Shown here piece by piece: positions 24,781 to 43,971 of a stretch of 64,000 bases of DNA; position 1 is the first letter of the stretch, and each line of letters begins with the position of its first letter. The DNA is taken from positions 1 to 64,000 of the forward strand of contig NZ_JACOFZ010000002.1 of assembly GCF_014284155.1 (NCBI RefSeq), written 5' to 3'. This DNA comes from Affinundibacterium nitidum. Its GTDB lineage: Bacteria > Pseudomonadota > Gammaproteobacteria > Burkholderiales > Burkholderiaceae_D. The notes under the pieces were generated by a model, which did not search any database, had not been told where the DNA came from, and was given only the letters and a program-made list of their open reading frames with translations. The position numbers were made by a program, and so were the translations under genes.

Positions 24781-26190
24781 TCAGTCGAAGTAAAGACGCT
24801 CAGTGTTAAAGAAAACACAATCCTCTTCCTCTTCTACTGCGATCTCAAGGTAATTTCGCTCTATTAACTCCTGAAAGCCCAGCAAAATCTTTTGCTCTGG
24901 AATATGAGCGTGCTTCTCAGAAAATTCCATCATCACTTGGCGCAGAACTTTCCCCCTTTGGCACAATGACCATAGGTCGTGCATTTCATTCGATTTCAAG
25001 TGCAAAGGTTGAACGGTGATTTTACTTTCATAGAAATGCACGTCTTGAATCATCGAGTCTTTTGATAGGGCAATAACTGCGCGACGTCGGGCCCAAAATA
25101 CCGATTCCGGCCAACGAGTTTCACGTTGATAGTATTGCCATTGCGTTTGTAAGTATTGACGGAAGTCTTGTTCAATCGCTTGCGCGTAGGTATCTAAAAG
25201 ACTGCCCTCTGAAAAGAGATGATCCACCGCGATGAAGGCACCATGAACGCCAGTTGCCAATGCGCGTGGAATACCAGAGGAAGAGATCGGATCATATGAG
25301 GCCACTGCATCACCAACCGCAACCCAGTCCCTGCCTCCTGCATTTCTCAAATAAGAGGAATAGCAAGGAAACGCTCGAGGTACATCATCAAACTCCAAGC
25401 TTTGCAAGGTACTACCAATTTGGGTTTTAGAAAATAACGCGCGCCACACTGCCGGCTGGCTACCATGAAGCTTGTTCAAAATATCAGGATCGCTCATCAA
25501 GACCACTGAAACACGACCATCCACCATTGGCGTAACATGCCACCATCCATATTCTGCTGCTTCCACGTGATTTTCTACAGTCAAACTGCCACCTTCAGGC
25601 AATCGACCAATGCATCCAACACCAACCAAACGATCGTGAACCGTTAGCGCCAAATTCAAATTAGTTCGCATGACTCCACGACGACCAGAAGCATCAATAA
25701 TAAATTTACAATGAGTAACGTAGGTCGCTCCTTGCTCGTCCTTGACCAAGACACGCCAACCACCTTGTGGTCTAGCCTCACATGTCACCACCTGATTACG
25801 AATCAGTAGTTCGCCGCCACGGGAGGTGAACGTATCAGCCAACATCTTTTCAAAACGAAGACGATTCAGTGCCCAACCTGTTCCGCTCTCAGCGAACATG
25901 TGCCCAAGGCGGCGAGATTCGGAACTACCCCAACTTACCTGGCTAAAAAATGGCTCTTGGCTTTGCGTCGCGCAAAATTCATCCCAAACACCAAGGTATT
26001 CCAGTGTCGAACGGACACTAGAGGAAAGTGACTCGCCGTACTTATGTTCAGAGTAATCACCACGTTCGACAATAGAAACGCGCACATCTTCGCGCTTCAG
26101 CAAGGCAATACCCGCGGTACAACCTGAAATCCCACCACCTAAAATCAGGACGTCAACTTCTTTGATGACTAGATCACTTTGGCTATTCAT
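24781..26190 (-). CDS. FAD-dependent, tryptophan-halogenase-like oxidoreductase
   Basis: About 469 residues. A GGGISGC dinucleotide motif (residues 18-24), YGESLSS near 51 and GDAVASYDPISSSG at 293-306 place it in the flavin-dependent monooxygenase/halogenase superfamily. The halogenase motif WxWxIP is replaced by GWWHVTP (215-221), so halogenation is doubtful; relatives such as the LodB/GoxB-type maturases oxidise residues in proteins. The ATG at 26190 has GAGG five bases upstream. A consensus sigma-54 promoter (26317-26331) drives it, in the same region as the FHA sigma-54 activator and the peptide cluster, so I infer it acts on the peptide product. The substrate is not known. Confidence 0.75.
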   Translation of the reverse strand: MNSQSDLVIKEVDVLILGGGISGCTAGIALLKREDVRVSIVERGDYSEHKYGESLSSSVRSTLEYLGVWDEFCATQSQEPFFSQVSWGSSESRRLGHMFAESGTGWALNRLRFEKMLADTFTSRGGELLIRNQVVTCEARPQGGWRVLVKDEQGATYVTHCKFIIDASGRRGVMRTNLNLALTVHDRLVGVGCIGRLPEGGSLTVENHVEAAEYGWWHVTPMVDGRVSVVLMSDPDILNKLHGSQPAVWRALFSKTQIGSTLQSLEFDDVPRAFPCYSSYLRNAGGRDWVAVGDAVASYDPISSSGIPRALATGVHGAFIAVDHLFSEGSLLDTYAQAIEQDFRQYLQTQWQYYQRETRWPESVFWARRRAVIALSKDSMIQDVHFYESKITVQPLHLKSNEMHDLWSLCQRGKVLRQVMMEFSEKHAHIPEQKILLGFQELIERNYLEIAVEEEEDCVFFNTERLYFD

Positions 26191-26316
26191 TTTGACCTCA
26201 ATTATGGTTTCCACTCAGATTCTGGAAAACACCCAACCCAGACTCTCATGAACACTCAATACGCTTAGATTTGTTCGATATTTTTGCCACACAAAAGCGG
26301 CTCTACACCACTAATA

Positions 26317-26727: not shown

Positions 26728-28299
26728 ATGAACAATATTGATTACACCATCACCTCGCCACTGAATGTGGTTGCCAAAGAAAGTAGGCCTTTGTTAGCGA
26801 TCACGATCGCTTGGCATCCAGATGTATCGCGCATCGGTGAGCAATTCATCGGAACCACTGAAGAAGGGGTGATTGAAGTAAGTCGCTTCATTCCGATGTT
26901 TCGCAAGAGCCATGGAGACACTTTGCCAATCGGGCATGGTGGCGTTTCTCGGGAACCCATCCGCGTAGTGCGAGACACTAGTGATGGCGTCACGATATGC
27001 CCACCAAAGAGCAGAATGGTGGTCGAGCTCAACGGCCAAATGATTATTGATCCAGTATGTCTCAGCGCGGAACAAATTGAGGCTGGAGCGATTTTGGCTT
27101 TAGGCCGTGCGGTTTACTTATGTATTCATTGGATGCGCTGCCTTCCCAAAGAAAACCCGGTCGAAGGTTTTATTGGCGTCGGCAGCGCTGCTATCGCAGC
27201 CCGCGATCTAATTCGTCTCGCAGCGAGCAGTGATGCCACGGTATTACTTCTCGGCGAAACGGGTACCGGAAAAGAAGTGGCTGCGCGCGGCATTCATCAA
27301 CTAAGTAAGCGATCTGCACATCGCATGGTGTCAGTGAATATGGCTGCACTCAACGAGTCACTTGCAGCGGCAGATTTATTTGGTGCAAGTAAAGGCGCCT
27401 ACACAGGCGCACAAAACGCGCGTAATGGTTTCTTCAGCGAAGCTGAGGGATCCACTCTCTTTCTCGACGAAATCGGCAACACTCCTGTTAGCATCCAACC
27501 AATGCTATTGAGAGTTCTCGAAACAGGTGAGTATCGTCCACTTGGGGCAACACGCGATAATAAATCGACTGCACGTCTGATCACCGCAACCGATCAAGAT
27601 CTCTATCATTCGTCTTTTAACCACGCTTTAGTTCGTCGCTTAGAAAGCTTCATCATTCGGATTCCACCTTTACGTGCACGCCGTGAGGACATCGGTTTAT
27701 TGATGATCAACTTGTTTCAAACACTTGAAGTCGGTTCGATTGATCCTGGGCAGATTCCCGCTAGTTTCATTGACAATGCACTCAATTACGACTGGCCAGG
27801 CAATATTCGCCAATTAGGCAACGTCTTCAAGCGAGCCATATTATCGATACAAATGGGTGAAACTCCGGTGCTCGCGAGTATGATTGAAGCTCCAAAATTG
27901 CAATCGGTCGACAACGCCGCTCAACTCCGAAAAATACATGCATATGGCATGCAAGATAATGTCATGGGTAAGTTGGGCAAAGTTGCCCCAGACCCCGAAG
28001 AAGTGCCGGTAGAGCGCAAGAAGTTGCGCGACTTGAGCGAAGATGATGTAGTCAACGCGATGGAGAAACACGCTTGGACGATCCAATATGCCGCGGAAGA
28101 TTTGGGCATATCCCGCCCTTCTATGTATAAACTTATCGAGGCCAACGCTCAAATTCGACGTGTGGAGCAAATCCCAACGGATGAATTGCGCGGACAATTT
28201 GACACGGCCGGCGGAGAAGTTGAAAAATGTGCATCACTTCTAAAGACACCGAGTGAAGCCTTGCGCCGCCACTTAAAAGGTTTAGGCTGGATTTCTTGA
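26728..28299 (+). CDS. FHA-domain sigma-54-dependent activator
   Basis: A 523-residue enhancer-binding protein. The N-terminus (~20-115) is FHA-like, with the phosphothreonine-binding region LPIGHGGVSREPIRV near 67-81; there is no receiver domain. The AAA+ domain has Walker A GETGTGKE (176-183), the sigma-54 loop GAYTGA (223-228), Walker B TLFLDEIG (243-250) and the arginine segment RARRED. A Fis-like helix-turn-helix (AAEDLGISRPSMYKLIE) sits before a ~60-residue tail. FHA domains bind phosphothreonine, so the natural input is a Ser/Thr kinase, and three kinase-like genes lie in the same region. It probably drives the sigma-54 promoters at 26317 and 37629. Confidence 0.9.
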   Translation: MNNIDYTITSPLNVVAKESRPLLAITIAWHPDVSRIGEQFIGTTEEGVIEVSRFIPMFRKSHGDTLPIGHGGVSREPIRVVRDTSDGVTICPPKSRMVVELNGQMIIDPVCLSAEQIEAGAILALGRAVYLCIHWMRCLPKENPVEGFIGVGSAAIAARDLIRLAASSDATVLLLGETGTGKEVAARGIHQLSKRSAHRMVSVNMAALNESLAAADLFGASKGAYTGAQNARNGFFSEAEGSTLFLDEIGNTPVSIQPMLLRVLETGEYRPLGATRDNKSTARLITATDQDLYHSSFNHALVRRLESFIIRIPPLRARREDIGLLMINLFQTLEVGSIDPGQIPASFIDNALNYDWPGNIRQLGNVFKRAILSIQMGETPVLASMIEAPKLQSVDNAAQLRKIHAYGMQDNVMGKLGKVAPDPEEVPVERKKLRDLSEDDVVNAMEKHAWTIQYAAEDLGISRPSMYKLIEANAQIRRVEQIPTDELRGQFDTAGGEVEKCASLLKTPSEALRRHLKGLGWIS

Positions 28300-28965: not shown

Positions 28966-31167
28966 TTAGAGCTTACTTGGCTTGCGCAAATACAGAGGGT
29001 CTCGACGCAAGGATACCAAGTCGGGGTCAGCATCAATTAGTTTTGTTGGATAACCCAGAGACCTTGCTTTGAGCACCGCAGCAACTGCAGCTTCGCGTTT
29101 CCCCAAAACTTCGTAGCTCACCCCCACTCTAAATTGCGCCAACGGATTTTGCTCGATTAATCCATCTAAAGCAGCAATCGCCTCATGTGCGGCCGAGATA
29201 TCACCATTCTTTGCGTTATACAGCGCTGTGCGAGAAAGTAAGTCTGCGTCTTTGGGCGATTTGTCCAATTTAGGCTTAATCAAATCACGTGCAGTCGCGT
29301 AGGCATTTTTCGCGCTATCCATCCGCCCCGGAATCCATTGCAAAGTGTCTGCATATTTAGCCCAAGTTCGAAAATCTTCAGGATTACCCGTAACTTTATT
29401 GACCGCTCTCTCATAGGCGGTAGCCGCACCGACATAATCACCACGTAAGAACAAAGTATCACCAAGCTCCGCATACAGTTCGCCAGTTTCACGCAGTTTT
29501 AGACCTTGCTGCAAAGTTTGAATTGCCTCTTCGATCTGGTTCAGCTTCACCTGCGCTCGTGCTAAACCAATATAAGTTGCAGCGTTAGCCGAGCTACGCT
29601 CAATGCTTTGTTGATAAAGCTCGACCGCCATACTGTAATTTTGTTGGGAGACATAGATCTCGGCGAGCTGATGAGAAAAGCCAGCATTTTGTGAAAATAA
29701 TTGGGCCGCTTGCTGAGCCGATTCCATCGCCTCCTTCACTTTCTCTGCTCGCAGTTGTCCTAATATTTTGTTGAGCCACACTTGTGGATTTTTAGGGTCA
29801 AGAGCAAATGCGCGATCAATCTCCTGCTGCGCAGCCTCATGTTGCCCCCTCAAACTCAACACACGGCTATAGGCAATATGTGTCAGCGCTAAAAAATCAT
29901 TCTGCTCCAAAGCTTTTTTTGCATTGGCCTCAGCGCGCTCAAGAGCCGCTGTATTCTGCGCATCCAGCACATATCGATAGCTATCGACGAGTGCCAAACT
30001 GGCGCGAGCAGCAGTGTGCTCAGGCGTCTGCTCCAAGATACGGGTGAAATGTACTTCCGCTTGGTCTAACATTTCCGCCCGATCTGCCTGTTCAAGCGCT
30101 GCTAAGCCTGCTTTCATTTCTCGGGCTTCAGAATAATTCTTTAACTGCGTTTCGACCCGCGACCAATATGGTTGTGTCTGCCATCCAACAAATGCCAGTA
30201 TCAGCACAATAAAGACCAGCAAGATTGGACGCGAAGACTTAAACAAGCGTCGCCAATTAACAATGGGAGCTTCATCTTGCGGTGGCAATGCAGCAAGGTT
30301 AATGCCGCTCATCTTGAAGGAAGCCGAGCCCATCGATGGAGGGTCAAGCGCAATCAACTGATTGATCTGCAAAACCACTTCCTGCATTGATGCGATTCGA
30401 TTTTCAAGTTGACGCGCGGTCATGGCACGAACCAACTGACGCAATGCCAACGGCAAATGGTCAGGCCAAGGCCATTGATCAGAATTCGATTGAATGACTG
30501 CAGCGGCCAAAGCCAAACCTGAGAGATTGGCGAATGGTCGACTTCCAGTCAGAAGCTCGTACAAGATGACGCCCAGTGCATAGATATCTGAACACGCACG
30601 CATACTAGCGCCGGTCAAAATTTCAGGTGCCATATAGGCTATGGTGCCTTGAGGGTCTGCTTGCACTACCGATGTTGTCGCATCGCGATCGGCTTGACTC
30701 GCCAGACCAAAATCCAAGATGCGGACCGCGCCACCTGGCTCTTGCATTAAATTCGAGGGTTTGAGGTCGCCATGAATAAGGCCCGCGGCGTGTGCCTCCT
30801 GCATTGCCTGCGCGACTTGACGAACAATATCGAGAACTTGATGGATACTCGGTGGCTGCGTCTCAAGCAATTGACGTAGGGTCCGACCCGGCACCATTTC
30901 CATCACGATCGCTTGGCTATCTGAGGTTTGCTCGAGGGCATGAACCTTCACAAAGGCAGGATGCTGTAAAGATGCTGCAAGGCGGGCTTCACGCAAAAGA
31001 TCGACGCCAGCACTGACATTCTTTAAATATTTAATGGCAACTTGGCGATGTAATTTCGTATCCCACGCTTGAAACACTTGTCCAAAACCGCCCTCACCTA
31101 GGCTTTGACCTAGCTGATAGTGAAGTAAAAATTCAGGTTGTTGGGCAGTGACTTGGGTTACTGACAT
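28966..31167 (-). CDS. membrane Ser/Thr kinase with TPR domain, catalytically intact
   Basis: About 733 residues from the ATG at 31167 (a longer frame begins with TTG at 31251). Kinase domain 15-275: glycine loop LGEGGFGQVF (23-32), Lys46 in VAIK, catalytic HGDLKPSN (132-139), DFG (152-154), and the APE segment YMAPEI. One membrane helix lies at ~314-330, followed by about ten tetratricopeptide repeats to the end, predicted outside the inner membrane. All catalytic residues are present, unlike in its two paralogues upstream. It could phosphorylate a protein read by the FHA activator. Last gene of the minus-strand series, 157 bp after the previous kinase gene. Confidence 0.88.
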   Translation of the reverse strand: MSVTQVTAQQPEFLLHYQLGQSLGEGGFGQVFQAWDTKLHRQVAIKYLKNVSAGVDLLREARLAASLQHPAFVKVHALEQTSDSQAIVMEMVPGRTLRQLLETQPPSIHQVLDIVRQVAQAMQEAHAAGLIHGDLKPSNLMQEPGGAVRILDFGLASQADRDATTSVVQADPQGTIAYMAPEILTGASMRACSDIYALGVILYELLTGSRPFANLSGLALAAAVIQSNSDQWPWPDHLPLALRQLVRAMTARQLENRIASMQEVVLQINQLIALDPPSMGSASFKMSGINLAALPPQDEAPIVNWRRLFKSSRPILLVFIVLILAFVGWQTQPYWSRVETQLKNYSEAREMKAGLAALEQADRAEMLDQAEVHFTRILEQTPEHTAARASLALVDSYRYVLDAQNTAALERAEANAKKALEQNDFLALTHIAYSRVLSLRGQHEAAQQEIDRAFALDPKNPQVWLNKILGQLRAEKVKEAMESAQQAAQLFSQNAGFSHQLAEIYVSQQNYSMAVELYQQSIERSSANAATYIGLARAQVKLNQIEEAIQTLQQGLKLRETGELYAELGDTLFLRGDYVGAATAYERAVNKVTGNPEDFRTWAKYADTLQWIPGRMDSAKNAYATARDLIKPKLDKSPKDADLLSRTALYNAKNGDISAAHEAIAALDGLIEQNPLAQFRVGVSYEVLGKREAAVAAVLKARSLGYPTKLIDADPDLVSLRRDPLYLRKPSKL

Positions 31168-31324
31168 AGGAGAACTTCTACAAAAATCCAATTTGCTAAG
31201 CAGGCCACATTTTAACTCGGATTGTTTGTCGAAAATAGACGAACTCTGCAAATTGGAGTTCGTATCCCGTTAGAGGGTAATCAACGTATGTCTCAACCAA
31301 CAAAGCACTATGTTGAGAGCACCT

Positions 31325-33553
31325 TCATCGCATTTTGAAATCAGGGTAATTCGCGATCATGCCGGGCTCATAGCCCTGCCGCCGACTTTCTGCGAGTGCT
31401 GTGTTTGCTTGCTGCTGTTCCCCGAGGATCTGATAACTGAGCGCTAACCAAAAATGAGATTCGGCGGGAATCTCAGCAATGCTGTATGTCTTCTGTATAA
31501 ACTGATGAGATGCTTCCGAATTACCCAAACGCGCGTATATCACGGCTTGGATACTAGTGAGTATTGGGTCGCTCGGCGAGCGCTTCAACCGAAGCTCAAG
31601 CAAGCTCTGTGCTTTTTGATGCGCTTGCATCGCATCAGCTCGACGGTCGGGGATCTGAACTAAGGCCTCCGCATATTGAAACCATCGCAAATAACTACCA
31701 TTGACACCTTTGTTGACCGACACTGCATTTTCATAAGCTGAAGCAGCGGCAACAAAATCGTGTTCCTCAAAACGAATATTGCCCAAGGTGGTAAAAAGGT
31801 TCACATTCGAGCCAATGACTAAGCCTTTTTGAATGATAGCTAATGCCTCTTCACGCTTTCCATGCGAATACATGGCTTGAGCCAATAGAGAATAGGCCAA
31901 GAGAGATTCAGGTTGCCGACGAATGCTTTGCTCCAACACCACTATAGCGGATGGATAGTCGCTTCGGTTTAGAAAAATTCCGCCCATCAGATCTAATAAA
32001 AATCGATCATTAGGAAACTTACTGGCACCGAGAGCGCCAAACTTGATTGCTTCTTCGTTCTTTCTTGCCTCGAGCAAAACACTCATCTTGCAGTGCCAGA
32101 GCAGCAAGTTGTCAGGCTCTTTTTGCAAAGCCTGCTCCACACTTTGAAGTGCCAAATCGAGTTGATGATATCCTTGCTGGATACGGGCTTGAGCCAACAA
32201 ACTAGCCGCAGCCTCTGGCGCCAAGGACATCGCTTGCTGTGCACCTGCCGTCGCTTTTTGAAACCAAACCTCATCACGCGTACTTGCGTAATAGTTCGAC
32301 AAATTACTGATAGCGAGATAGGCGATCGCCTCAGCATTTCGCGGCTCACGTTCAATGACCTGTTGAAAATGTTGGATAGCACTAGCCAATTTAGCGGGAC
32401 GTGGACGAATTTGATACTCAGTCAAATCATTGAGCCCTTCGGCTATTTCATTGGAACTCGAATAAGGTTTCAAGGCACGCCAAAGTTGTGGCCCATTTTG
32501 CACCGCCTTCCATGCAAGCACTGACAAGATTGCGACAAGTCCCAATGCGATCACATACTGCTTCCAAGTTCGAGGCACGCCATACCGATATCGTTTCTTT
32601 TTCAAATCAAATCGATGTTCGATTTCTTCACGTAACTGACGCAAGTCTTCACTGTTGAGGCTCTGCGAAACCATATCCCTTGGGATTAGCGCTACACATC
32701 GTTCACGCAACTCCGTTGCCGACGGCCTCGCTGATGGATCCGCTGCCGTCAACTTCAATAAAATCTCACGCATAGGCATGGACATACTTTCTGGCCATTC
32801 CCATTGCGCCGAACTAGACTGCAGTTTCGCTGCCACCAAGGCTAAACCGTGCAGGCCCGCAAAAGGCAAGCACTGAGAAAAGTAGCGATACCAAATCACA
32901 CCAAGTGCATATAGATCACTCGCGGCGAGCGGTACAGCTTGAGAGAAACGTTCAGGAGCGGTGTAGATCAAACTACCGAAAGGATCTATCTGTGTTTCCG
33001 ATCCAAAGATGTTCGATGCGGTGCCGGGCGCAAGTGAAAAATTTAAGATTCGAATATGACCCGATGCATCAAGCACCAAATTTTCCGCCTTCAAATCTCC
33101 ATGAACTAATCCTAGTGCATGCGCTTCTTGAAATGCGCTTGCCACTTCAAACAGATACTTGGCCAACAAGGCCTCATTGGCAGTCACTGCTTCTAACTGA
33201 GTCAATGGCAGTCCAGTCACCGCCTCCATGACAACAAAGATGTTCTCGTCGACCTCTTCAACATTGTGAATGCGGGCAAAGGCGGGATGCTGTAATCCTG
33301 CGACTTTTCTGATCCGTTGACGTAGGGTCTCAATCGCTGCCTCGCGCTGATCGACAGTGCTGACTGCATCACTGTAAGTTTGTCCTTCCGCGAAAATACG
33401 CTGAAGGGGAAATTTACGTATCCATACCGGGCGCGATAGACTAGTGTCAAAAGCCTCAAACAACTCTCCATCCAGATCAAGCCGAATGCGTTGCCCAAGT
33501 CTATATTGCAAGATCTCTGTCGCTTGCCCTGAATTATCGTGAGAGTGAACCAT
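31325..33553 (-). CDS. membrane kinase-like TPR protein, probable pseudokinase
   Basis: A 742-residue paralogue with the same layout: kinase fold ~15-290, membrane helix ~333-349, TPR region ~375-742. The glycine loop is lost (RLDLDGELF), the VAIK lysine position reads VWIR, and the magnesium-binding DFG aspartate is replaced (NFS, 171-173), although HGDLKAEN (151-158) remains. It is therefore predicted to lack normal phosphotransfer and to act as a scaffold or allosteric partner. Begins 150 bp after the cyclase gene, on the same strand; no sigma-54 element was found in that gap. Confidence 0.85.
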   Translation of the reverse strand: MVHSHDNSGQATEILQYRLGQRIRLDLDGELFEAFDTSLSRPVWIRKFPLQRIFAEGQTYSDAVSTVDQREAAIETLRQRIRKVAGLQHPAFARIHNVEEVDENIFVVMEAVTGLPLTQLEAVTANEALLAKYLFEVASAFQEAHALGLVHGDLKAENLVLDASGHIRILNFSLAPGTASNIFGSETQIDPFGSLIYTAPERFSQAVPLAASDLYALGVIWYRYFSQCLPFAGLHGLALVAAKLQSSSAQWEWPESMSMPMREILLKLTAADPSARPSATELRERCVALIPRDMVSQSLNSEDLRQLREEIEHRFDLKKKRYRYGVPRTWKQYVIALGLVAILSVLAWKAVQNGPQLWRALKPYSSSNEIAEGLNDLTEYQIRPRPAKLASAIQHFQQVIEREPRNAEAIAYLAISNLSNYYASTRDEVWFQKATAGAQQAMSLAPEAAASLLAQARIQQGYHQLDLALQSVEQALQKEPDNLLLWHCKMSVLLEARKNEEAIKFGALGASKFPNDRFLLDLMGGIFLNRSDYPSAIVVLEQSIRRQPESLLAYSLLAQAMYSHGKREEALAIIQKGLVIGSNVNLFTTLGNIRFEEHDFVAAASAYENAVSVNKGVNGSYLRWFQYAEALVQIPDRRADAMQAHQKAQSLLELRLKRSPSDPILTSIQAVIYARLGNSEASHQFIQKTYSIAEIPAESHFWLALSYQILGEQQQANTALAESRRQGYEPGMIANYPDFKMR

Positions 33554-33703: not shown

Positions 33704-34957
33704 TCAGCCAGGATTGGTCAGCAAAATCGTTGGCACTTTAAACGGGTCAACGAGGCGCAAATAAAAATGACCGATACCAGCTGTACCGAGCATTAGACTA
33801 GGGGTTTCACCAGCACCGCTGTTCCCGCACGGCCAAGGACGCCCCTCTTGTAGGATGTGTCGAATGCCATTTTCACCGACTTGTTCTGCGAGCTGTCTCA
33901 GGTCCGGGCGTTGAAGTTGATGTGCTGCTTGAATTAAGAGCTCTGCATTCCCCGCTTCACCATGGCAGAGTGAAAAATTAGCACGCCCGTTTTTCCATGG
34001 TCTGGCCAGCGCAGAAGAAGTGGTAGCTAAGGCCATTTCCAAGTCTTCTTGAATCTCCACATTCTCGGGCAAGATCTGCGCTTGACGCAATCGCGCTAAT
34101 CCGATTCCCGGCGCACCATGGCACCACGCCAAACTATAGTTTGGACGAGCACTCTTTACACCAGAAGGCGGAATGCGATGATCCGGCCAATTTCCAATCT
34201 CAGAATTCCTTTGTCGACGTTCAAAGCGCAAAGCACCAAGTGCAATCTTTAAATAGTCCTCATTTTTTGTCCGTGCGTACAACTCCAGCAGTGCCGTTGC
34301 GATCCCCGCACTACCATGCGAATAGCCATTTAAGTGCGGTTCCCTTGGATTGCTAGAAGTCTGCCACGAAACCTCGTCGCCCTTATAGACCGCATTTACC
34401 AATAAATGTTGGCCGTGCATTTCCGCTATATCGATGACTTCGGGAGCATTTAATACTGCGGACAAATGGAGCAATGCCGGTATCGCACCAGCACTACCAG
34501 TGACCACGTCAAGTGCAATCGGGGCCAACACTTGATTTCTCAAGGGAAGCAAGAGCTGTTTGCTGCGAGCGTATAGGTCATGTCGCCCTGTTATTCGGGC
34601 AGCCTTAGCCAACACAAAGGCTAGCCCTGTAGTACCCGAAAAGAAACTCGCGTTTGGATTTGCCTGGTTCTTTTCGTGCAAAGACAAGGCTTGATTCAGC
34701 GCGCCATCGATACAGCGCAATTGAAGTGGATCTTGGGTGAGCTGATAGAGTTCGGTCAAAAACAGAACGATTCCCGATGTCCCGCCGTATAAATCCGCAC
34801 CGAGTGCGCGGAACATTTGCGTGCTGCCATTAACCTGCGCCTCATGCGTCCAGCCCAGCCAAGTACAACGTCTACTGTCCCACAAAGCGTCGCGACACAA
34901 GCTTCTGCCGATCCGATCCGCCACCTCCAAGTACCGTTCTTTAGCAGCGTCAATCAC
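33704..34957 (-). CDS. LanC/LanM-type lanthionine cyclase
   Basis: A 417-residue all-alpha (alpha/alpha toroid) cyclase that would add Cys thiols to dehydroamino acids to form (methyl)lanthionine. The three zinc ligands are present: Cys279 in WCHGAPGIGLARL, and Cys331–His332 in LCHGEAGN; the catalytic-type His214 lies in GYSHGSAG. Several GxxG repeats (GGTSGI, SGTTGLA, GSAGA, GTAGIG) mark the barrel. WCHGAPGIGLARL and the C-terminal LMLGTAGIGHFYLRL look like the cyclase half of class II LanM enzymes, but no dehydratase half is attached. It overlaps the HopA1 gene by 4 bp. Confidence 0.92.
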   Translation of the reverse strand: MIDAAKERYLEVADRIGRSLCRDALWDSRRCTWLGWTHEAQVNGSTQMFRALGADLYGGTSGIVLFLTELYQLTQDPLQLRCIDGALNQALSLHEKNQANPNASFFSGTTGLAFVLAKAARITGRHDLYARSKQLLLPLRNQVLAPIALDVVTGSAGAIPALLHLSAVLNAPEVIDIAEMHGQHLLVNAVYKGDEVSWQTSSNPREPHLNGYSHGSAGIATALLELYARTKNEDYLKIALGALRFERRQRNSEIGNWPDHRIPPSGVKSARPNYSLAWCHGAPGIGLARLRQAQILPENVEIQEDLEMALATTSSALARPWKNGRANFSLCHGEAGNAELLIQAAHQLQRPDLRQLAEQVGENGIRHILQEGRPWPCGNSGAGETPSLMLGTAGIGHFYLRLVDPFKVPTILLTNPG

Positions 34958-35997
34958 TCCACTCCTCCGACAAAAAGTGGTTGTGCAAATAGATCAAATT
35001 CGCCTGAATTCAAATAAGGAGTATTCAAATCTATACCGACGTCACTAAAGCATTGTTCAATTAACGCCATTTTCCCGTCGCAATTATAGATTCCATTTGC
35101 ATTGGCCTTCAACAAAGCAAGAGCCACCAAACCGCAACGATGCATACCGAAACTGGCCCCTTTGCCTGGGTCTTGGGCAGCACCTATGCCACGAGCAAAT
35201 TCTCTTGTAAACATTGGCACTCCTGAACGTAAACCATCTCCCAATAAATCAGGTAGGCGGGTCAACAGATAGGCAACTATTTGATAGTGGCAACTTGCCA
35301 CATATAAAACCGCTGCATCAGCTCGTCCATAAGTTGCGGGATCGGCAAGTGCTTTAAAGTGATACGGTATGTAATAGTGGTTGAGTTGTTGACTCAAAAA
35401 CCGTAGCAGCGCAACGACCATGCTCGACTCAATATTGAAATAAAACCTCAACAACTTATACTCATCGAACTGATCCGACAAAGTCGCACCAAAAGTATGG
35501 AAAAAGGAATCTAATGGTGCTTCTGTGTAAGGGAACACTTTGAGCTTAACGATATCTCCGACTTTTGCACCTGCTCCCATCCAGTTGTCGAGCATATAAG
35601 TGCCGGCCCACGCAATTCGACTTTGATCCGCCCTTTTAACGTATGCTCTGCCATCATTTCCAAAATGGTAGATCTCCCAACCTGGGTCCCAAGATGGGTG
35701 TGTGCCATTAGCGATTTTTAGGTGCGCGACCAATTCCGCAATATCAGTTTGAATCGAGATCGGAGTTCGGATTGGTTTTTCGGAGGAACATAGTTGATTA
35801 TCACGTCCTGACTCAGGACGAATATAAAAATTTTTATATAGACGTCCGGTAAGTGTATCAAGCAACTGTGCGTGTGAAAGTGCATCTAACGCACCTTTCA
35901 ACAAGAACTCCTCACTAGCGAAAGAAATGCGATCAGCTTCAATCTTTACCCGTTGACAAATATCGAGAAGATCGGAGTGACAATGCGGCACGCTCAT
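34954..35997 (-). CDS. HopA1-family protein, predicted phospho-Ser/Thr lyase
   Basis: A 347-residue protein of the type III effector HopA1 family: an N-terminal LYKNFYIR segment, GRDN, a central RFYFNIE stretch, then DAAVLYVASCHYQIVAYLL and a late SFGMHRCGLVALALL. In thioviridamide-type RiPPs and class V lanthipeptides a HopA1 protein works with an aminoglycoside-kinase-like partner and eliminates phosphate to give dehydroamino acids. Here the kinase gene lies directly upstream with a 4-bp overlap and the cyclase directly downstream with a 4-bp overlap, so the three are made together. No secretion signal is visible, and no type III genes are nearby, so an effector role is unlikely. Confidence 0.85.
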   Translation of the reverse strand: MSVPHCHSDLLDICQRVKIEADRISFASEEFLLKGALDALSHAQLLDTLTGRLYKNFYIRPESGRDNQLCSSEKPIRTPISIQTDIAELVAHLKIANGTHPSWDPGWEIYHFGNDGRAYVKRADQSRIAWAGTYMLDNWMGAGAKVGDIVKLKVFPYTEAPLDSFFHTFGATLSDQFDEYKLLRFYFNIESSMVVALLRFLSQQLNHYYIPYHFKALADPATYGRADAAVLYVASCHYQIVAYLLTRLPDLLGDGLRSGVPMFTREFARGIGAAQDPGKGASFGMHRCGLVALALLKANANGIYNCDGKMALIEQCFSDVGIDLNTPYLNSGEFDLFAQPLFVGGVE

Positions 35998-37109
35998 GCC
36001 TCAAGTTCCTCAACTCTTGATTCGGTTGCGATTGCGAACCAATGTTTCACCAACATCAAAGGATCCTCGAACATCAGTTGAGCGAGTTGTAACACCATCG
36101 ACATACTGTTTGACATGTCCCTAGCAGTGAATACGCCCTCATAGCAAGTTAAAATCAGACGCGCCGCGACAAAACGTAGAACTGATTCAAGTTCATGCAA
36201 GTCATACTCTGTCCTCCCCAAACCATTTTGATAGGATCGCCAAAAAGTTTGTAAGCTCTGGCGCAGTGCTGCCTGCAGATCATTCTCACGAGCAATGAGC
36301 TCCACAATGTCCCTAGCAGGTGCTTGTCCAATTTCTCGCAGATCAGTTTCAATCCAAAACACCAGAAAAGAATGCATTAGGCCCGCGACATCCCAACGAG
36401 CATCTCCAATATCAATCAGTTCCCAATCAATCAATTTGAGTTGAGCCATCTGCTTTTCATCAGGATAGATCAGGCAATTATCCCATTTCATGTCTCCGTG
36501 CATGAGACAATCAAATCTCCAATCTCGTTTGAGTGCCTGCATTCCATCTCGAATTGCACCGAATTGCTGCATCGTCGCCAGCATTTGCTTAACACCATCG
36601 CTCGCGGAGTCTGAAACACGATCAAAGTTTAGAATCCAAACGGGATTACGCTGGCATGACTGCAGCAGCTCATGGGGCACATTCGCTAAGGTAACTGAAC
36701 GATGAAAATCCGCCAAAGCACCTCCAACCATACTTGCAATCAGAGTTGAAAAACGACGAATCCGCCAATGATATTGCGTCAAACTCTCGCTATGATTAAT
36801 GAACTCTAGAACGATACTATGACGCTCTCGGTCAATATCAAGCACGCGAGGTAGGTATTGATTCCAGGATGACTGAACTTGCGCCAACGTGTAATAGTCC
36901 ATCTCTCGTTTGAAATTAGCCAAACTATCAGGATCACTAGCCTTGGTTTGTTTAACAAACAGGGCTCTATTTGAATCAAGTTTGACGCAAAAATTTCGGT
37001 TTCGTCTTCCCAGCTCGGTCACACTAAAATCTCCATCGACAATCGTCGAAGGTGTTACAAGCTTCCGGGAAATCAAGAAATGTGCGAGGTTAGTCGACGT
37101 CAGAAACAT
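35994..37109 (-). CDS. APH-like kinase, predicted precursor-peptide Ser/Thr kinase
   Basis: A 371-residue protein of the aminoglycoside phosphotransferase/choline kinase superfamily. ATP-site Lys53 is in ALFVKQTK; the catalytic loop is HGDMKWDN (204-211) and the metal-binding aspartate is in LIDWE (226-230), so the active site is complete. In class V lanthipeptide and thioviridamide pathways such a kinase phosphorylates Ser/Thr of the precursor before HopA1-type elimination. Position directly between the precursor and the HopA1 gene supports the same job; antibiotic resistance is a less likely alternative. The ATG at 37109 has no strong ribosome binding site. Confidence 0.86.
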   Translation of the reverse strand: MFLTSTNLAHFLISRKLVTPSTIVDGDFSVTELGRRNRNFCVKLDSNRALFVKQTKASDPDSLANFKREMDYYTLAQVQSSWNQYLPRVLDIDRERHSIVLEFINHSESLTQYHWRIRRFSTLIASMVGGALADFHRSVTLANVPHELLQSCQRNPVWILNFDRVSDSASDGVKQMLATMQQFGAIRDGMQALKRDWRFDCLMHGDMKWDNCLIYPDEKQMAQLKLIDWELIDIGDARWDVAGLMHSFLVFWIETDLREIGQAPARDIVELIARENDLQAALRQSLQTFWRSYQNGLGRTEYDLHELESVLRFVAARLILTCYEGVFTARDMSNSMSMVLQLAQLMFEDPLMLVKHWFAIATESRVEELEA

Positions 37110-37134
37110 AAATAGCTAGAGGTGTCGCTAAACC

Positions 37135-37157
37135 GATGTATGCTTAGGGCATACATC
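37135..37157. promoter_or_regulatory. stem-loop between precursor and enzyme genes
   Basis: GATGTATGC-TTAGG-GCATACATC is a perfect 9-bp stem with a 5-base loop in the 146-bp gap after the precursor gene. On the minus strand it is not followed by a U run, so it is more likely a processing/stability element or partial attenuator than a full terminator. It could raise precursor mRNA above enzyme mRNA. Confidence 0.6.
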
Positions 37158-37255
37158 AGCGGCTAGCATGGAATTCTGTCACACTGACAAGGGACCGCTG
37201 AGTGAGTCAACTCTGCACGCACTCGCGGCCATTCTAAAAAAAAGTAAATCGGCCA

Positions 37256-37534
37256 CTATTTCAAAGCCGGGGCAATATAGTCGATTTGCTCGAGTCCATC
37301 GCCGCTACAACCACATGTCTGCGTGCATGTTTTCTGTGTAGCTGGTACGTCTAAGTCACCTGATGATAGCTGTTGTTGCGGAGGTACATAAAAATCAGCG
37401 CCGATGTCGCTCGTACATCCACAAGTTTGTGTGCATGTTTTTTGAGTTGCTGGCGTATTCACTGAAAAATCCGAACTATCTTTTACAACTTCATATTTAT
37501 CGTTTATCAGACTTTGGTTATCAAACGGTGCCAT
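37256..37534 (-). CDS. two-core lanthipeptide-type precursor peptide
   Basis: A 92-residue peptide with GGAG eight bases before its ATG. A leader of about 27 residues is followed by core 1, PATQKTCTQTCGC (28-40), a spacer, core 2 with the same 13 residues (64-76), and a 16-residue tail. Both cores hold four Thr and three Cys, ideal for methyllanthionine rings. Each core is preceded by an SS-D element and followed by an aromatic/proline patch (DFYVPP 47-52; DYIAPA 85-90), probable recognition or cleavage elements. The cores are identical in protein but differ at seven of 13 codons, all silent. A sigma-54 promoter stands upstream and the kinase, lyase and cyclase genes follow. Confidence 0.88.
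   Translation of the reverse strand: MAPFDNQSLINDKYEVVKDSSDFSVNTPATQKTCTQTCGCTSDIGADFYVPPQQQLSSGDLDVPATQKTCTQTCGCSGDGLEQIDYIAPALK
37307..37453 (-). repeat. tandem core repeats in the precursor gene
   Basis: Two 39-bp core units at 37415-37453 and 37307-37345, with a period of 108 bp (36 codons). They encode identical peptide but differ only at synonymous positions in Ala, Thr, Gln and Gly codons, which points to an old duplication held by selection on the peptide. Confidence 0.85.
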
Positions 37535-37628
37535 TAGAAAATCTCCATAGTAAGTTCATCAACATCAAATAATTTTCTTGATTTACCTTCTAGAAATATC
37601 AATTTCATAAAGAGTAAAAATAACAGTA

Positions 37629-37643
37629 GCACAAATCATGCCA
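37629..37643 (-). promoter_or_regulatory. sigma-54 promoter of the precursor gene
   Basis: On the minus strand TGGCATGATTTGTGC: GG and GC separated by ten bases, -24 TGGCATG and -12 GTGC differ from consensus at one base each. It lies in the 116-bp gap between the nitrilase-like gene and the precursor and predicts a start near 37617, leaving a leader of about 80 nt. Confidence 0.8.
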
Positions 37644-37650
37644 TTACTTC

Positions 37651-38973
37651 TTATTTTTCAACGCAACTAACAAGCGAGTATGCATCCCTCAGACCATAAA
37701 CATGAATCGCGCCTGTCCCGCCAACAAAATAATCTTCAAATGTCCCCGCTTTCAGGATTGGTTTGGGAACAGAGAAAATTGCTACATCATTGGTAGGCAA
37801 GTTAGAGAATGAGGCGGATTTTAATTTTGGATTATCTCCGACCGCTGGCGTATTGACGCGAGCCAACTGACTATGCGAACCATATTTATCGGTGCCATAA
37901 TTAATGTACAGAAATTCAGATCTAGGATCGCCATATTGCTGCACACCCGAGGTCGAATCAAGAACCATTTGGCCATCGCAATTGAACACGAAACCGTTCG
38001 CACTAGCTACAACGTTTGACTGGATAATTGCCGAGCCATATGACGGCACAAGTTGCACATGGACACTACCAATGCCGTCCTCACGGAGATTGGAGCGTAG
38101 TCGCGCATCGTCGTGATCAAGACAAATTTCGATACCATAATCAACAAAGCCAGTTGAGGAATTAACTCCATTCTGACGAAATATCGCATAGTTATCAAAA
38201 GCGGTTCGTTTCGAATCACCATTGGACAAATCAATATGCGCATAACTAACCATTTGCTCTGTGATCACATCGGCACGGCCACTTGGCTCACAGAGGATAA
38301 AATCTTCACCAGATAGAAAATACTTTTCCGTGGTCATTACATTGGTCGCCAATGTATGGGTCGGCGTATCAAGTGTAATTTGACTAAAAATAACAGCACG
38401 ATCACGTACCGTCACATCAGGACTTGCATGACAATCAGTCAGAAAGTTGGACAAAGTAGTGCTCACCAATTGCTCTGTAGGACCATATGTTTGTTCTTTT
38501 TGTTCGAGCAAAGTTTTGACAATCGCATTGCGTGCGCGCACGCTCTCGGATGAAAATAGACGATCAACATTTGCAACGTGTGCGGTAACGGCTGTACCAA
38601 AAACAAACACCCAATTTGCATAAGCAGGGGCACTAAAACTCTCCCGCACTTGCTGCAAAAGGTAAGGCAATGGATCTTCCTCAATAGAAGAGTAAAGGTA
38701 TGCTCCTCGAGTACCATGAAAGTAAAACTCTGGCGATAAGAAAACGTTGATAACACCACTATCAACATCGTTTGCCGGCAGTTGCGCGCGTGCGGTATCT
38801 ACCGCATTTTTTAAAATGTCGATGCGGGCCAGAATATCAGTTTCTTGGTCCTCGTTGCCTAAGTAACTTTCGCCACCCGGAACTTCACTAGATAACTCAG
38901 GTCCCGTAAATAAGCAGTAAGAGATGAATCGAATAGCATTAAAATTTTTATTTATTTGGCTCTGGTTCAACAT
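37651..38973 (-). CDS. nitrilase-superfamily-like protein
   Basis: About 440 residues from the ATG at 38973, which has AAGG nine bases upstream; a longer frame would overlap the preceding kinase gene. The sequence is divergent, but the Glu-Lys-Cys arrangement of carbon-nitrogen hydrolases can be followed: Glu82 in VFLSPEFYFHG, Lys217 in TTEKYFLSGED and Cys284 in YGIEICLDHDD. There is no signal peptide. Possible roles are amide hydrolysis or amide transfer on the peptide or on a small molecule; the family match is from motifs only. It sits 64 bp after the first kinase-like gene and ahead of the precursor. Confidence 0.55.
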   Translation of the reverse strand: MLNQSQINKNFNAIRFISYCLFTGPELSSEVPGGESYLGNEDQETDILARIDILKNAVDTARAQLPANDVDSGVINVFLSPEFYFHGTRGAYLYSSIEEDPLPYLLQQVRESFSAPAYANWVFVFGTAVTAHVANVDRLFSSESVRARNAIVKTLLEQKEQTYGPTEQLVSTTLSNFLTDCHASPDVTVRDRAVIFSQITLDTPTHTLATNVMTTEKYFLSGEDFILCEPSGRADVITEQMVSYAHIDLSNGDSKRTAFDNYAIFRQNGVNSSTGFVDYGIEICLDHDDARLRSNLREDGIGSVHVQLVPSYGSAIIQSNVVASANGFVFNCDGQMVLDSTSGVQQYGDPRSEFLYINYGTDKYGSHSQLARVNTPAVGDNPKLKSASFSNLPTNDVAIFSVPKPILKAGTFEDYFVGGTGAIHVYGLRDAYSLVSCVEK

Positions 38974-39037: not shown

Positions 39038-41260
39038 CTATGGATGATATCGATGATCTTTTCTGAGCCCATCGAAAATCGGATTACTTGCAAATTCTGC
39101 GGTAGGAAATTGCAAGTTTCGTGCGAGCGCGATCATCTTGAGTGCAGTTTCACGATCACCCGCAAGTTCATAAACGGCAGCGCCAAACAAATATGAATTT
39201 GCAGTCTCAGTATTTATTTCAATCGCCCGATGTATGGTTTGTTTAGCAGAGCTAAATTCACCTAAACGTGCTTGAATAAAGGCCATGTGTGACATAATAA
39301 AAGCGTCATCAGGAGACCTTGTCAGGCGTATTTCTAGGAGTGTTTTGGCGTTCCGAAAAGCTTCGATACCGTCCCTTTCCCTCCCCGGAACCCACATTAA
39401 CGCTTCACCATATTGATACCAACGAAAGTAACTTCCGAAAACACCCTTTTGCGGTGAAACAGCTTTACCAAATGCATCTGCCGCTTCAACATAAGCTCTC
39501 TTACGGAACATTATTCTTCCAAAAGCCCCGTATAGTTGTGCATTAGGTCGAATTTGCAGTCCTTGCTGCAAAAACTGCATTGCCTCGTTAACACGACCTT
39601 GCTCATCTAGGACATCTGCCAGCAAGGAATATGCATTCACCGAATCAGGCTGGCGACTAATACTCAAGCGATACGCTTCTTCAGCCCCTTTTTGATCTCC
39701 CAATGTTCCAAGTGCAACGCCATTCAATTCTGGTAAAACGCGGTCATCTTGAAATTTTTTAGTCCCGTCCTCGGCAAACTTGCGGAGGTCATTAACTTTC
39801 CCCATCTCCAGCAGAATACGCGCTTTGTTTATCCAGCAAATCAAATTGTCTGGTTCTAGCCTCAATGCGGTGTCCGTAGCATTTAATGCCTCCTGCATTC
39901 GATGATGCCACTGCAAAACTTTTGCATTTGCAATCTGACTAATTGCTAAATTTGGATCGAGGCTCATGGCCTGTTGCGCACTAGCTTTCGCTTTCTGCAT
40001 CCATGTCTCATCTCGTTTTTCGTTGTTATATTTACTCATATACACCAAGCTCATATACGCGACGGCCTTGGCGTTGTTCGGAGATCTCTGCAAGATGCGT
40101 TCGAAATGCTCATTCGCTTTATCAAGTTGATCTTGAATGGGCACTTGCGCATAACTGGAAAGGGCAGCGATACCTTGCTCCATCTCACGGCTTTCAGAAT
40201 AGGGCTTCAAGGCTTTTGCGATTTGAGGCCAATATGGTTTTGCCTGCCAAATTCCGATACCGGAGATGGCGACTACTAAGGCCAAGATGAGAGCTATTTT
40301 TTTCCGACGTTGACGTGCCATGCCATCGAGTTGCGCCTGCAATGCATTGAGCTGCAAAGAAACCGCGCTCACCGAAATCGGGTCGTCTGGCCGCATCTCC
40401 TGGCAGGCTTGCATCACCTCGAGGTAACTCATACGCTTTACTGAATCGCGTTTAGTCATACCCAATATTAGCTCTTTGGCTTTCAATGAAATTGAGCTGC
40501 TCCACGTCCACTGTTCAGATTGCGTTTGAACTTGCGCTGCGACCAATGCCAAACCATTCAAATTGGCAAACGGCAGCTCACCGCTTAGCATTTCGTAAGT
40601 AATAACACCGAGCGCGAAGACCTCGCTACTGGGGCTTGGCTCGACGTCACTAAAGCGTTCGGGAGCCAGATAAGCGATGCCTTGGTAAGCATCGACTTGC
40701 TGAAATTGTCTTAACTGCTGAAGCTCACCAACATTTCGATCTTGGCGCAGTGCGAAATGTAAGATTCGGATCTTGCCTGACTGATCAATCAACAAATTTG
40801 CTGACTGCAAATCACCATGAACTAAGCCGACTGCTTGTGCTTCATGGAGCGCGGCGGCGAGATGATAAACATACTCAATGATGTGCTTCTCATTGCCACG
40901 ATGGTTCTTAATCCATTCACGCAGCGGAGTTCCTTGAACCGCTTCCATGACAATAAACAGACTGTCGCCATCTTGCTCCAAGGCATGGATTTTAAAAAAA
41001 CTAGAATGCTTCAAAGAAGCGACCAAACGCGCTTCGTTTAGCATTGCCTCAAGATTAGCCCCCAAGCCTGCCATAACTTTGATGAGCACCTGACGGCGCA
41101 ATACGCTGTCCCAAGCTTGGTACAAGTTGAAAGCACTAGAGCTTAGAGAGGTATCGATCTGCCCCCGAATTTCGTAGTGAAGCAGAGAAGGCGGCAAGGT
41201 AGGGGCGTCAACTGCGAGCTCGACGGTATCATTCTTGTTATTGGTATCAACGATGCTCAT
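39038..41260 (-). CDS. membrane kinase-like TPR protein, probable pseudokinase
   Basis: A 740-residue paralogue of the two kinases downstream: kinase fold ~25-290, membrane helix ~322-338, then TPR repeats to the C-terminus. Lys61 in VLIK is kept, but the glycine loop is degenerate (IDTSLSSSAF), the catalytic loop reads HGDLQSAN (148-155, Lys to Gln), and DFG is HFA (168-170), so the metal-binding aspartate is missing. It should bind partners rather than phosphorylate. It is the first gene of the minus-strand series, with a TACGTGTAA repeat pair and a weak promoter upstream. All three paralogues share a KPY…E/M…G…L segment just after the membrane helix. Confidence 0.85.
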   Translation of the reverse strand: MSIVDTNNKNDTVELAVDAPTLPPSLLHYEIRGQIDTSLSSSAFNLYQAWDSVLRRQVLIKVMAGLGANLEAMLNEARLVASLKHSSFFKIHALEQDGDSLFIVMEAVQGTPLREWIKNHRGNEKHIIEYVYHLAAALHEAQAVGLVHGDLQSANLLIDQSGKIRILHFALRQDRNVGELQQLRQFQQVDAYQGIAYLAPERFSDVEPSPSSEVFALGVITYEMLSGELPFANLNGLALVAAQVQTQSEQWTWSSSISLKAKELILGMTKRDSVKRMSYLEVMQACQEMRPDDPISVSAVSLQLNALQAQLDGMARQRRKKIALILALVVAISGIGIWQAKPYWPQIAKALKPYSESREMEQGIAALSSYAQVPIQDQLDKANEHFERILQRSPNNAKAVAYMSLVYMSKYNNEKRDETWMQKAKASAQQAMSLDPNLAISQIANAKVLQWHHRMQEALNATDTALRLEPDNLICWINKARILLEMGKVNDLRKFAEDGTKKFQDDRVLPELNGVALGTLGDQKGAEEAYRLSISRQPDSVNAYSLLADVLDEQGRVNEAMQFLQQGLQIRPNAQLYGAFGRIMFRKRAYVEAADAFGKAVSPQKGVFGSYFRWYQYGEALMWVPGRERDGIEAFRNAKTLLEIRLTRSPDDAFIMSHMAFIQARLGEFSSAKQTIHRAIEINTETANSYLFGAAVYELAGDRETALKMIALARNLQFPTAEFASNPIFDGLRKDHRYHP

Positions 41261-42685: not shown

Positions 42686-43180
42686 ATGTTACAGCGTGGT
42701 CGAAGTCCCCAATTCGCATTGCTTTTACTCAGTCTCTCCCTTGCCACACCACTCTCCGCATTTGCTTCTTCCGCCGTCGACGATGGCCCATCAACAACTA
42801 CCGTAGCGCCAGCACCCTTACCAGATCCCGACTGCCCTTCTTGCGCTTTGTCGCGCGCTTCGAATGCTTTATCACAAGCGGCAAGCACAGTGGTTGAAGG
42901 CTCACTCAATACCATCGGTGCATCAGGGATGTTGGTGGTTACTAGTATTGAAGTGCTGGCACAAGGCTCTGTCGTCGTGCTCAAAGGCGTTTCAGATGGC
43001 GTGAGTGTCACCGTGCAATTGTCTGGTCAAGCGATCCAAGGTCTCGGTCTTGCAAGTGGCGCGATTGTTCAAGCATCTGCTGTCGCCACCGGACATGTAC
43101 TGATCTCCGCAGGCAAAGTCATTGCTTTCATCCCCAATGAATTGGGCAAAGCCTTAATCCATCATGAGAAGGTGCAATAA
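42686..43180 (+). CDS. exported hypothetical protein
   Basis: About 165 residues. I do not recognise the family. The ATG at 42686 has GAGGTGA just upstream. A signal peptide (ALLLLSLSLATPLSAFA) is followed by a short Pro/Thr-rich stretch, a CPSC pair and then a long run of small and hydrophobic residues (Ala, Val, Gly, Ser) that could form glycine-zipper-like beta or helical hairpins, as in some outer-membrane or pore-associated proteins. Its stop codon overlaps the start of the DUF2145 gene (TAATG), so the two proteins are made together. Confidence 0.65.
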   Translation: MLQRGRSPQFALLLLSLSLATPLSAFASSAVDDGPSTTTVAPAPLPDPDCPSCALSRASNALSQAASTVVEGSLNTIGASGMLVVTSIEVLAQGSVVVLKGVSDGVSVTVQLSGQAIQGLGLASGAIVQASAVATGHVLISAGKVIAFIPNELGKALIHHEKVQ

Positions 43181-43971
43181 TGCGCGCCGCTGTCATTGCG
43201 GGCAGTTTGTGCACTCTTGTTTTCATGAGCGCTCCCGTTCACGCAGGTCGTAGTTGCGATGAAAAACCTGCTGATCCGAATCGACTCATGCAAGGTTTTG
43301 AGCTGGCGCAAAAGGTTAAAGTCAGCCTGGACCAGTCTGGTGCGCAGCTCGCAATCATTGCGCGTATCGGTCAAGATCTATCGAAATATCGCCTCAAATA
43401 CTCTCATTTGGGCATCGTCAGAAAGCTCGATGATGGTCGTTGGATGGTGATGCATGAACTCAATCAATGTGGCACCGCACGCTCAGATTTATATAACGAA
43501 GGACTAGCCAATTTCTTTATGGACGATCCTTATCGTTATGAAGCCATGTTGATGATTCCGAATATCGAGATTCAACAACGCATTCTCAGCACAATCAACT
43601 CGTCAACACCGAAAGCGCTGCAGGACCCTCACTACAATATGCTAGCGCATCCCTTTTCGACCAAATACCAAAACTCCAATCAATGGGCATTGGAAACCAT
43701 GGCCGCAGCGTTGGCGAACGATGTCCAAGTTAGCAATCGCGAACAAGCACAAACCTGGTTGAAGTATGCGAACTATCGCGCCAGTACTTTGGAAATTCCA
43801 ATGTTGACACGTTTAGGTGGCCGCATGTTCCGCGCGAATATCGCCTTTGATGATCAACCGTTTGATCGACGCATGGCAGGCCATATTGATACTGTCACCG
43901 TAGATTCAATCGATCGTTTTCTACAAACACGAGACAAGAACTTACAACATCTCGTATTAACCTATCCTTGA
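43180..43971 (+). CDS. exported DUF2145 protein
   Basis: A 263-residue protein with a signal peptide (SLCTLVFMSAPVHA, then GRSC). The body matches the DUF2145 pattern: a segment YSHLGIVRKLDDGRWMVMHELN near residue 75 resembles the beta strand and histidine of NlpC/P60-like folds, followed by LYNEGLANFF and a late AHPFSTKYQNSNQW. A hydrolase function is possible, but no catalytic set can be assigned with confidence. Translationally coupled to the preceding exported protein. Confidence 0.75.
   Translation: MRAAVIAGSLCTLVFMSAPVHAGRSCDEKPADPNRLMQGFELAQKVKVSLDQSGAQLAIIARIGQDLSKYRLKYSHLGIVRKLDDGRWMVMHELNQCGTARSDLYNEGLANFFMDDPYRYEAMLMIPNIEIQQRILSTINSSTPKALQDPHYNMLAHPFSTKYQNSNQWALETMAAALANDVQVSNREQAQTWLKYANYRASTLEIPMLTRLGGRMFRANIAFDDQPFDRRMAGHIDTVTVDSIDRFLQTRDKNLQHLVLTYP

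Follow-up and report, generated by a model that had tools for sequence, protein, structure and literature searches.

Class Vb lanthipeptides are built by three enzymes, the kinase LanK, the lyase LanY and the cyclase LanC (PMC12328550, a 2025 review; PMC12291118, 2025), as in SmoA with its cyclase SmoC (PMC12328550, citing Pei et al. 2022). Class Va pathways (cacaoidin, lexapeptide, pristinin A3) resemble the locus described below in their dehydration pair of LanK (PF01636) and LanY (PF17914) (PMC9486802), but they contain no LanC and form AviCys with LanD and LanX instead (PMC12291118). Liang et al. (2022) took ORFs of <110 residues for their class V precursor survey and distinguished actinobacterial, cyanobacterial and mixed types (PMC9486802), the available sections of the review describe class V lanthipeptides as found in actinobacteria only (PMC12328550), and Kloosterman et al. 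(2020) reported that distant homologues of the kinase/HopA1 pair exist in Proteobacteria (PMC7794033).

The window, meaning the whole 64,000-nucleotide stretch of Affinundibacterium nitidum DNA analysed here, contains an operon at 33704-37534 that reads, on the minus strand, from a 92-aa precursor through a 371-aa kinase and a 347-aa HopA1-family protein to a 417-aa LanC protein. Overlaps of 4 bp join the kinase gene to the HopA1 gene and the HopA1 gene to the cyclase gene, whose start codon is GTG. The features are:

37628..37643, minus strand: sigma-54-like promoter TGGCATGATTTGTGCT, 109 nt upstream of the precursor, score 18/20
37256..37534, minus strand: two-core precursor, 92 aa, 6 Cys, 10 Thr
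37415..37453, minus strand: core copy 1, PATQKTCTQTCGC, precursor residues 28-40
37307..37345, minus strand: core copy 2, PATQKTCTQTCGC, precursor residues 64-76
37110..37255, minus strand: precursor-kinase gap, 146 nt, with a predicted hairpin (-47.1 kcal/mol, z -3.08)
35994..37109, minus strand: LanK-type APH kinase, 371 aa, PF01636 39.1 bits (cut-off 23.2)
34954..35997, minus strand: LanY-type HopA1-family phospho-Ser/Thr lyase, 347 aa, PF17914 114.1 bits (cut-off 22.7)
33704..34957, minus strand: LanC-type cyclase, LanM-like, 417 aa, PF05147 215.5 bits (cut-off 23.2)

This layout agrees with the preliminary description of the locus in its coordinates, strand, two-core Thr/Cys precursor, enzyme families and both overlaps, and the three separate ORFs support what was proposed there for a proteobacterium, a Thr/Cys precursor served by a kinase, a lyase and a cyclase that are fully split. 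The accompanying claim that such a combination is unknown from characterised pathways has to be withdrawn, as a split LanK/LanY/LanC set is published as class Vb (PMC12328550, PMC12291118). The operon has a stand-alone APH kinase, a stand-alone HopA1-family lyase and a LanC with putative zinc ligands, resembles class Vb in these separate enzymes and in having no AviCys (PMC12328550, PMC12291118), and most likely works like class Vb, a comparison made from the description of the Smo system. Unlike class Vb, the locus is proteobacterial, its tandem cores are identical, the precursors of its relatives are tandem or giant, and a sigma-54 activator and TPR kinases surround the operon. It looks like the same enzyme logic with a different precursor design. 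The substrate design appears new; literature searches, mostly at the level of listings, turned up no open paper that describes class V precursors of tandem-core or giant type.

Four other assignments were considered and rejected. Class Va was set aside since no LanD decarboxylase or LanX kinase-like protein occurs among the island proteins scanned, and a thioamitide pathway since the same proteins include no YcaO/TfuA pair. Among solved structures, the cyclase profile matches the LicM2 cyclase domain, from a class II LanM, most strongly, but a LanM dehydratase domain is missing here, dehydration being assigned to separate proteins, and the cyclase ORF covers just positions 545-932 of TIGR03897, below the cut-off. 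The LanKC and LanL enzymes of classes III and IV, as described in the literature sections available, follow the same kinase-lyase-cyclase logic; they are single polypeptides, whereas lyase, kinase and cyclase are three ORFs here and a kinase plus a fused lyase-cyclase in three relatives.

The active sites of all three enzymes are intact. The nearest NCBIfam model of the kinase is class V LxmK (NF038156, 77.7 bits, far below the cut-off of 315), and its residues K53, E69, H204, D206, K208, N211 and D228 are invariant in 16 of 16 sequences. The lyase profile, searched against solved structures, finds chain 9dk1_B (named lyase) as its best match (61.1 bits) and HopA1 at 25.1 bits. R184, K215, R225 and Y232 of the lyase are invariant in 13/13 sequences and are spaced exactly like CaoY R187, K219, R229 and Y236, residues that Liang et al. 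discussed or mutated (PMC9486802); mapped in this way, they would correspond to the CaoY catalytic positions. The cyclase, the sole PF05147 match in the genome, comes nearest to the C-terminal part of LanM (TIGR03897, 288.9 bits, cut-off 304). Its residues C279, C331 and H332, which we take to stand where LanC proteins bind zinc, are invariant across 18/18 aligned sequences, in keeping with the three-ligand zinc cyclase proposed earlier.

Taken together, it is highly probable that this is a lanthipeptide pathway of class Vb-like type with multi-core precursors as its substrates. LanK would phosphorylate Thr, perhaps Ser, within each ATQKTCTQTCGC core, LanY would eliminate the phosphate to give dehydrobutyrine, and LanC would add neighbouring Cys thiols, so that each core would carry two or three methyllanthionine rings; each chemical step and the ring pattern, like the processing, export and biological role considered below, are deduced from sequence. 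The sigma-54-like promoter may drive the precursor, and a similar one precedes the precursor in L023 and L024, a weaker one in L028 and none in most of 14 relatives. The hairpin in the precursor-kinase gap perhaps lowers read-through; no consensus terminator is listed in this gap.

The short precursor is found by sequence search in 3 of 44 genomes of the genus, all three HopA1-positive. Its two cores encode the same PATQKTCTQTCGC peptide and differ at 7 of 39 nucleotides, with seven silent changes and no replacement; in the nearest relative, L023, both cores are TTQSTCTQTCGC, and every one of 11 differences in 36 nucleotides is silent. The expected silent share of single changes in the cores is 22-23%, so that the chance of all-silent differences is 3.5e-5 for 7/7 in the window and 6.5e-8 for 11/11 in L023. 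As the core differences are all silent, far beyond chance, the precursor is a genuine gene under selection.

HopA1 relatives occur at 18 places in 17 of the 44 genus genomes, the window's own included. The other 17 places were fetched and annotated, and in 15 of them the kinase is immediately preceded by a Cys/Thr-rich ORF; in the remaining two (L030 and L032) the sequence stops before the precursor position, and with the window the count is 16/16 at the genus loci that no contig end truncates. At L032, the second locus of one genome, the LanC reading frame (296-1593) is split into two ORFs, which may mean a broken copy or an error in the contig. The short two-core form is seen in the window and L023. 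Other Undibacterium loci carry tandem arrays of TGPxSSxCTQTC with period 13 (nine copies in L007, seven in L033), and further genus repeats include THDTTPQCCQ in L009, TTTQTCCP in L024 and PATQTTCPQQTCGG in L035; L010, a relative from another genus, has DDCCWIVLATTGCST repeated four times. Six Undibacterium loci (L025-L029, L031) have giant precursors, 343-432 aa long, in which Cys number 29-39, Thr 48-52 and Ser 2-7, that of L029 being taken with the full ORF start.

Precursor composition bears on two alternative explanations. Across 26 precursors, whose counts are not independent because some are close relatives, Thr makes up 11.9%, Cys 8.1% and Ser 5.2%, against 4.1, 1.1 and 6.7% in eight kinds of island proteins, and in 310 of 716 cases the distance from Cys back to the nearest upstream Thr is 5 or 6 residues, versus 94 in shuffles. 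The trio might merely dehydrate the precursor, with LanC adding small thiols or rings forming non-enzymatically and no defined lanthipeptide resulting. Animal LanCL proteins have been reported to add glutathione, and the cyclase profile does match LANCL1 (69.0 bits) and LanC-like protein 2 (76.9 bits) chains, yet it favours the LanM LicM2 (161.7 bits; NisC 72.9). Some class V peptides do cyclise without a specific cyclase, according to the available sections of the review (PMC12328550); here, however, every core has its own Cys, and Cys follows Thr by 5-6 residues far above shuffles, so that this explanation is very improbable. Alternatively, the ORF, rich in Cys and with no scanned precursor reaching a known family, could be an unmodified metal-binding or disulfide protein that only neighbours the enzymes; Thr is enriched alongside Cys, however, and such an ORF precedes the kinase across several phyla despite differing repeats (counts below), which leaves this explanation exceedingly improbable.

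Beyond the genus, the class Vb-like trio was followed by scanning named genomes with the lyase alignment, which yielded 55 loci (13 genus loci already counted above and 42 outside); the scan rests on two conserved HopA1 peptides, so that close relatives are over-represented and the loci do not amount to a class V census. Although the loci were fetched by HopA1 alone, APH, HopA1 and LanC follow in that order on one strand in 51 of 55, including 39 of the 42 outside the genus; the LanC match is weak in one of the 51 (L088). The order is not seen at L084 or at L045, L072 and L089, which contig ends truncate, and HopA1 and LanC are fused into one protein in L065, L069 and L091. Pairwise distances are strongly correlated among the three enzymes (r 0.90-0.93; 0 of 999 Mantel permutations as high). 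This bears on another alternative, that the kinase-lyase pair makes a thioamide or AviCys-type modification with LanC as a bystander: homologous kinase/HopA1 pairs do serve thioamitide and class Va pathways (PMC9486802), but LanC distances follow those of kinase and lyase alike, and the island scan found no cysteine decarboxylase, YcaO or second APH-family protein over cut-off, so that this modification is very improbable.

Under a Cys/Thr-rich criterion defined after examples had been viewed, 38 of the 49 loci that could be tested, having enough sequence upstream of the kinase, carry such an ORF immediately before it; outside the genus the count is 26 of 37, and among control genes 28 of 419. 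The preliminary description had named homologues always lacking a Thr/Cys-rich peptide as evidence against the pathway, and these counts do not bear that out. One of the 38 (L059) appears spurious, and one of the 11 loci without a precursor by the criterion (L055) has a precursor but a split kinase frame. The protein just upstream of the giant precursor at L055 (3092-4615) presumably resembles a sedolisin-type (S53) protease.

Precursor ORFs outside the genus are often long: 415-591 aa in nine Flavobacterium loci (a tenth, of 288 aa, is cut at the contig start), 371 aa in Bradyrhizobium, 427 aa in Rahnella, and 692 and 1086 aa in two MAGs of the Thermoanaerobaculum group (Thermoanaerobaculia), the longest with 97 Cys; all lengths run from the first start codon, so the greatest may be overstated, and in the 1086-aa ORF a shared N-terminal domain starts at residue 87. 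This small domain forms part of the precursor in L051, L063, L066 and L077, whereas the giant-type Undibacterium loci (L025-L029, L031) and Sideroxydans L046 and L048 encode it in a gene apart, where it has a core-like tail of its own; a search of examples for a Pfam or NCBIfam family or a fold match found none. Flavobacterium precursors, unlike these, start with another shared N-terminal stretch. In a Gemmatimonadetes MAG (L090, 4856-5341) the precursor has a twin-arginine-like stretch, SRREALKHGVVGIAG, perhaps for export once modified.

The operon lies in an island within the 16.9-kb interval between dnaE and trhO in the window. In four HopA1-negative genomes (L093, L094, L095, L100) the island is absent and dnaE adjoins trhO at about 150-270 bp; in the other six of the ten HopA1-negative genomes fetched, trhO has different neighbours and is therefore uninformative on island absence. 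GC content does not differ between the island (46.8%) and its flanks (46.7 and 47.5%). The remaining island features are:

39038..41260, minus strand: TPR Ser/Thr-kinase-like protein, HGDLQ, with HFA replacing DFG
37651..38970, minus strand: nitrilase-superfamily protein, 439 aa, assigned to the nitrilase fold
31325..33553, minus strand: TPR Ser/Thr-kinase-like protein, with NFS replacing DFG
28966..31251, minus strand: TPR Ser/Thr kinase, HGDLK..N and DFG intact, start codon uncertain
26728..28299, plus strand: sigma-54 activator, PF00158 163.9 bits
26316..26331, minus strand: sigma-54-like promoter TGGCACGTGAATTGCT before the flavoenzyme, score 19-20 of 20
24781..26193, minus strand: LodB/GoxB/QhpG-like flavoenzyme, NF038171 273.2 bits, below the cut-off of 400

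Glu81, Lys216 and Cys283 of the nitrilase-fold protein, a possible nitrilase triad, are invariant in 10/10 sequences. Among the 44 genus genomes, 13 carry its gene: 11 are HopA1-positive and the other two are 73% and 70% complete, and the gene is absent from the six giant-type genomes. The flavoenzyme, whose group comprises enzymes modifying protein side chains, is found at >=54% identity in 12/44 genomes, with nitrilase-positive genomes making up 12/12, and only weaker matches occur in 13 more; its sigma-54-like promoter scores 19-20 of 20 at all six loci tested, the window included (the L033 start is approximate). The two TPR proteins with degenerate DFG motifs (31325-33553 and 39038-41260) may be pseudokinases. 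These island proteins (nitrilase-fold protein, LodB-like flavoenzyme and TPR kinases) probably serve tailoring, processing or control. No exporter or known leader protease was detected among the island proteins scanned; the one C39-type match is located on a different contig, and the ABC transporter at 18089-19825 occurs also in genomes without the island. Downstream of the island (43180-43971), a DUF2145 protein (242.5 bits) adjoins a small protein without a Pfam match.

The most unusual feature is the tandem and giant precursors of the relatives, which lay outside the view of the preliminary description: 36 of the 38 precursor ORFs exceed 110 residues, the upper bound of the survey of Liang et al. 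(PMC9486802). The long, sometimes enormous repeat proteins beside the trio in other bacteria are probably stitched by sulfur bridges. A more far-reaching reading is that the trio is a phylum-spanning branch whose tandem and giant Thr/Cys precursors, some led by a folded N-terminal domain and reaching up to 1086 aa and 97 Cys, are cross-linked tens of times and stay long thioether-ringed chains rather than small peptides; we propose this tentatively, with slightly more doubt than belief. In the L007 array the 13-residue units abut without linkers, and since such arrays leave little space for cutting between units, the proposal is kept at that level. If the trio works as read, enzymatic thioether cross-linking would extend to proteins of hundreds of residues, and class V would reach Bacteroidota, Acidobacteriota and others, compared with actinobacteria only in the available sections of the review (PMC12328550). 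The locus makes it testable how dozens of sites on one chain would be handled by three stand-alone enzymes, and whether the product is cut or stays whole.
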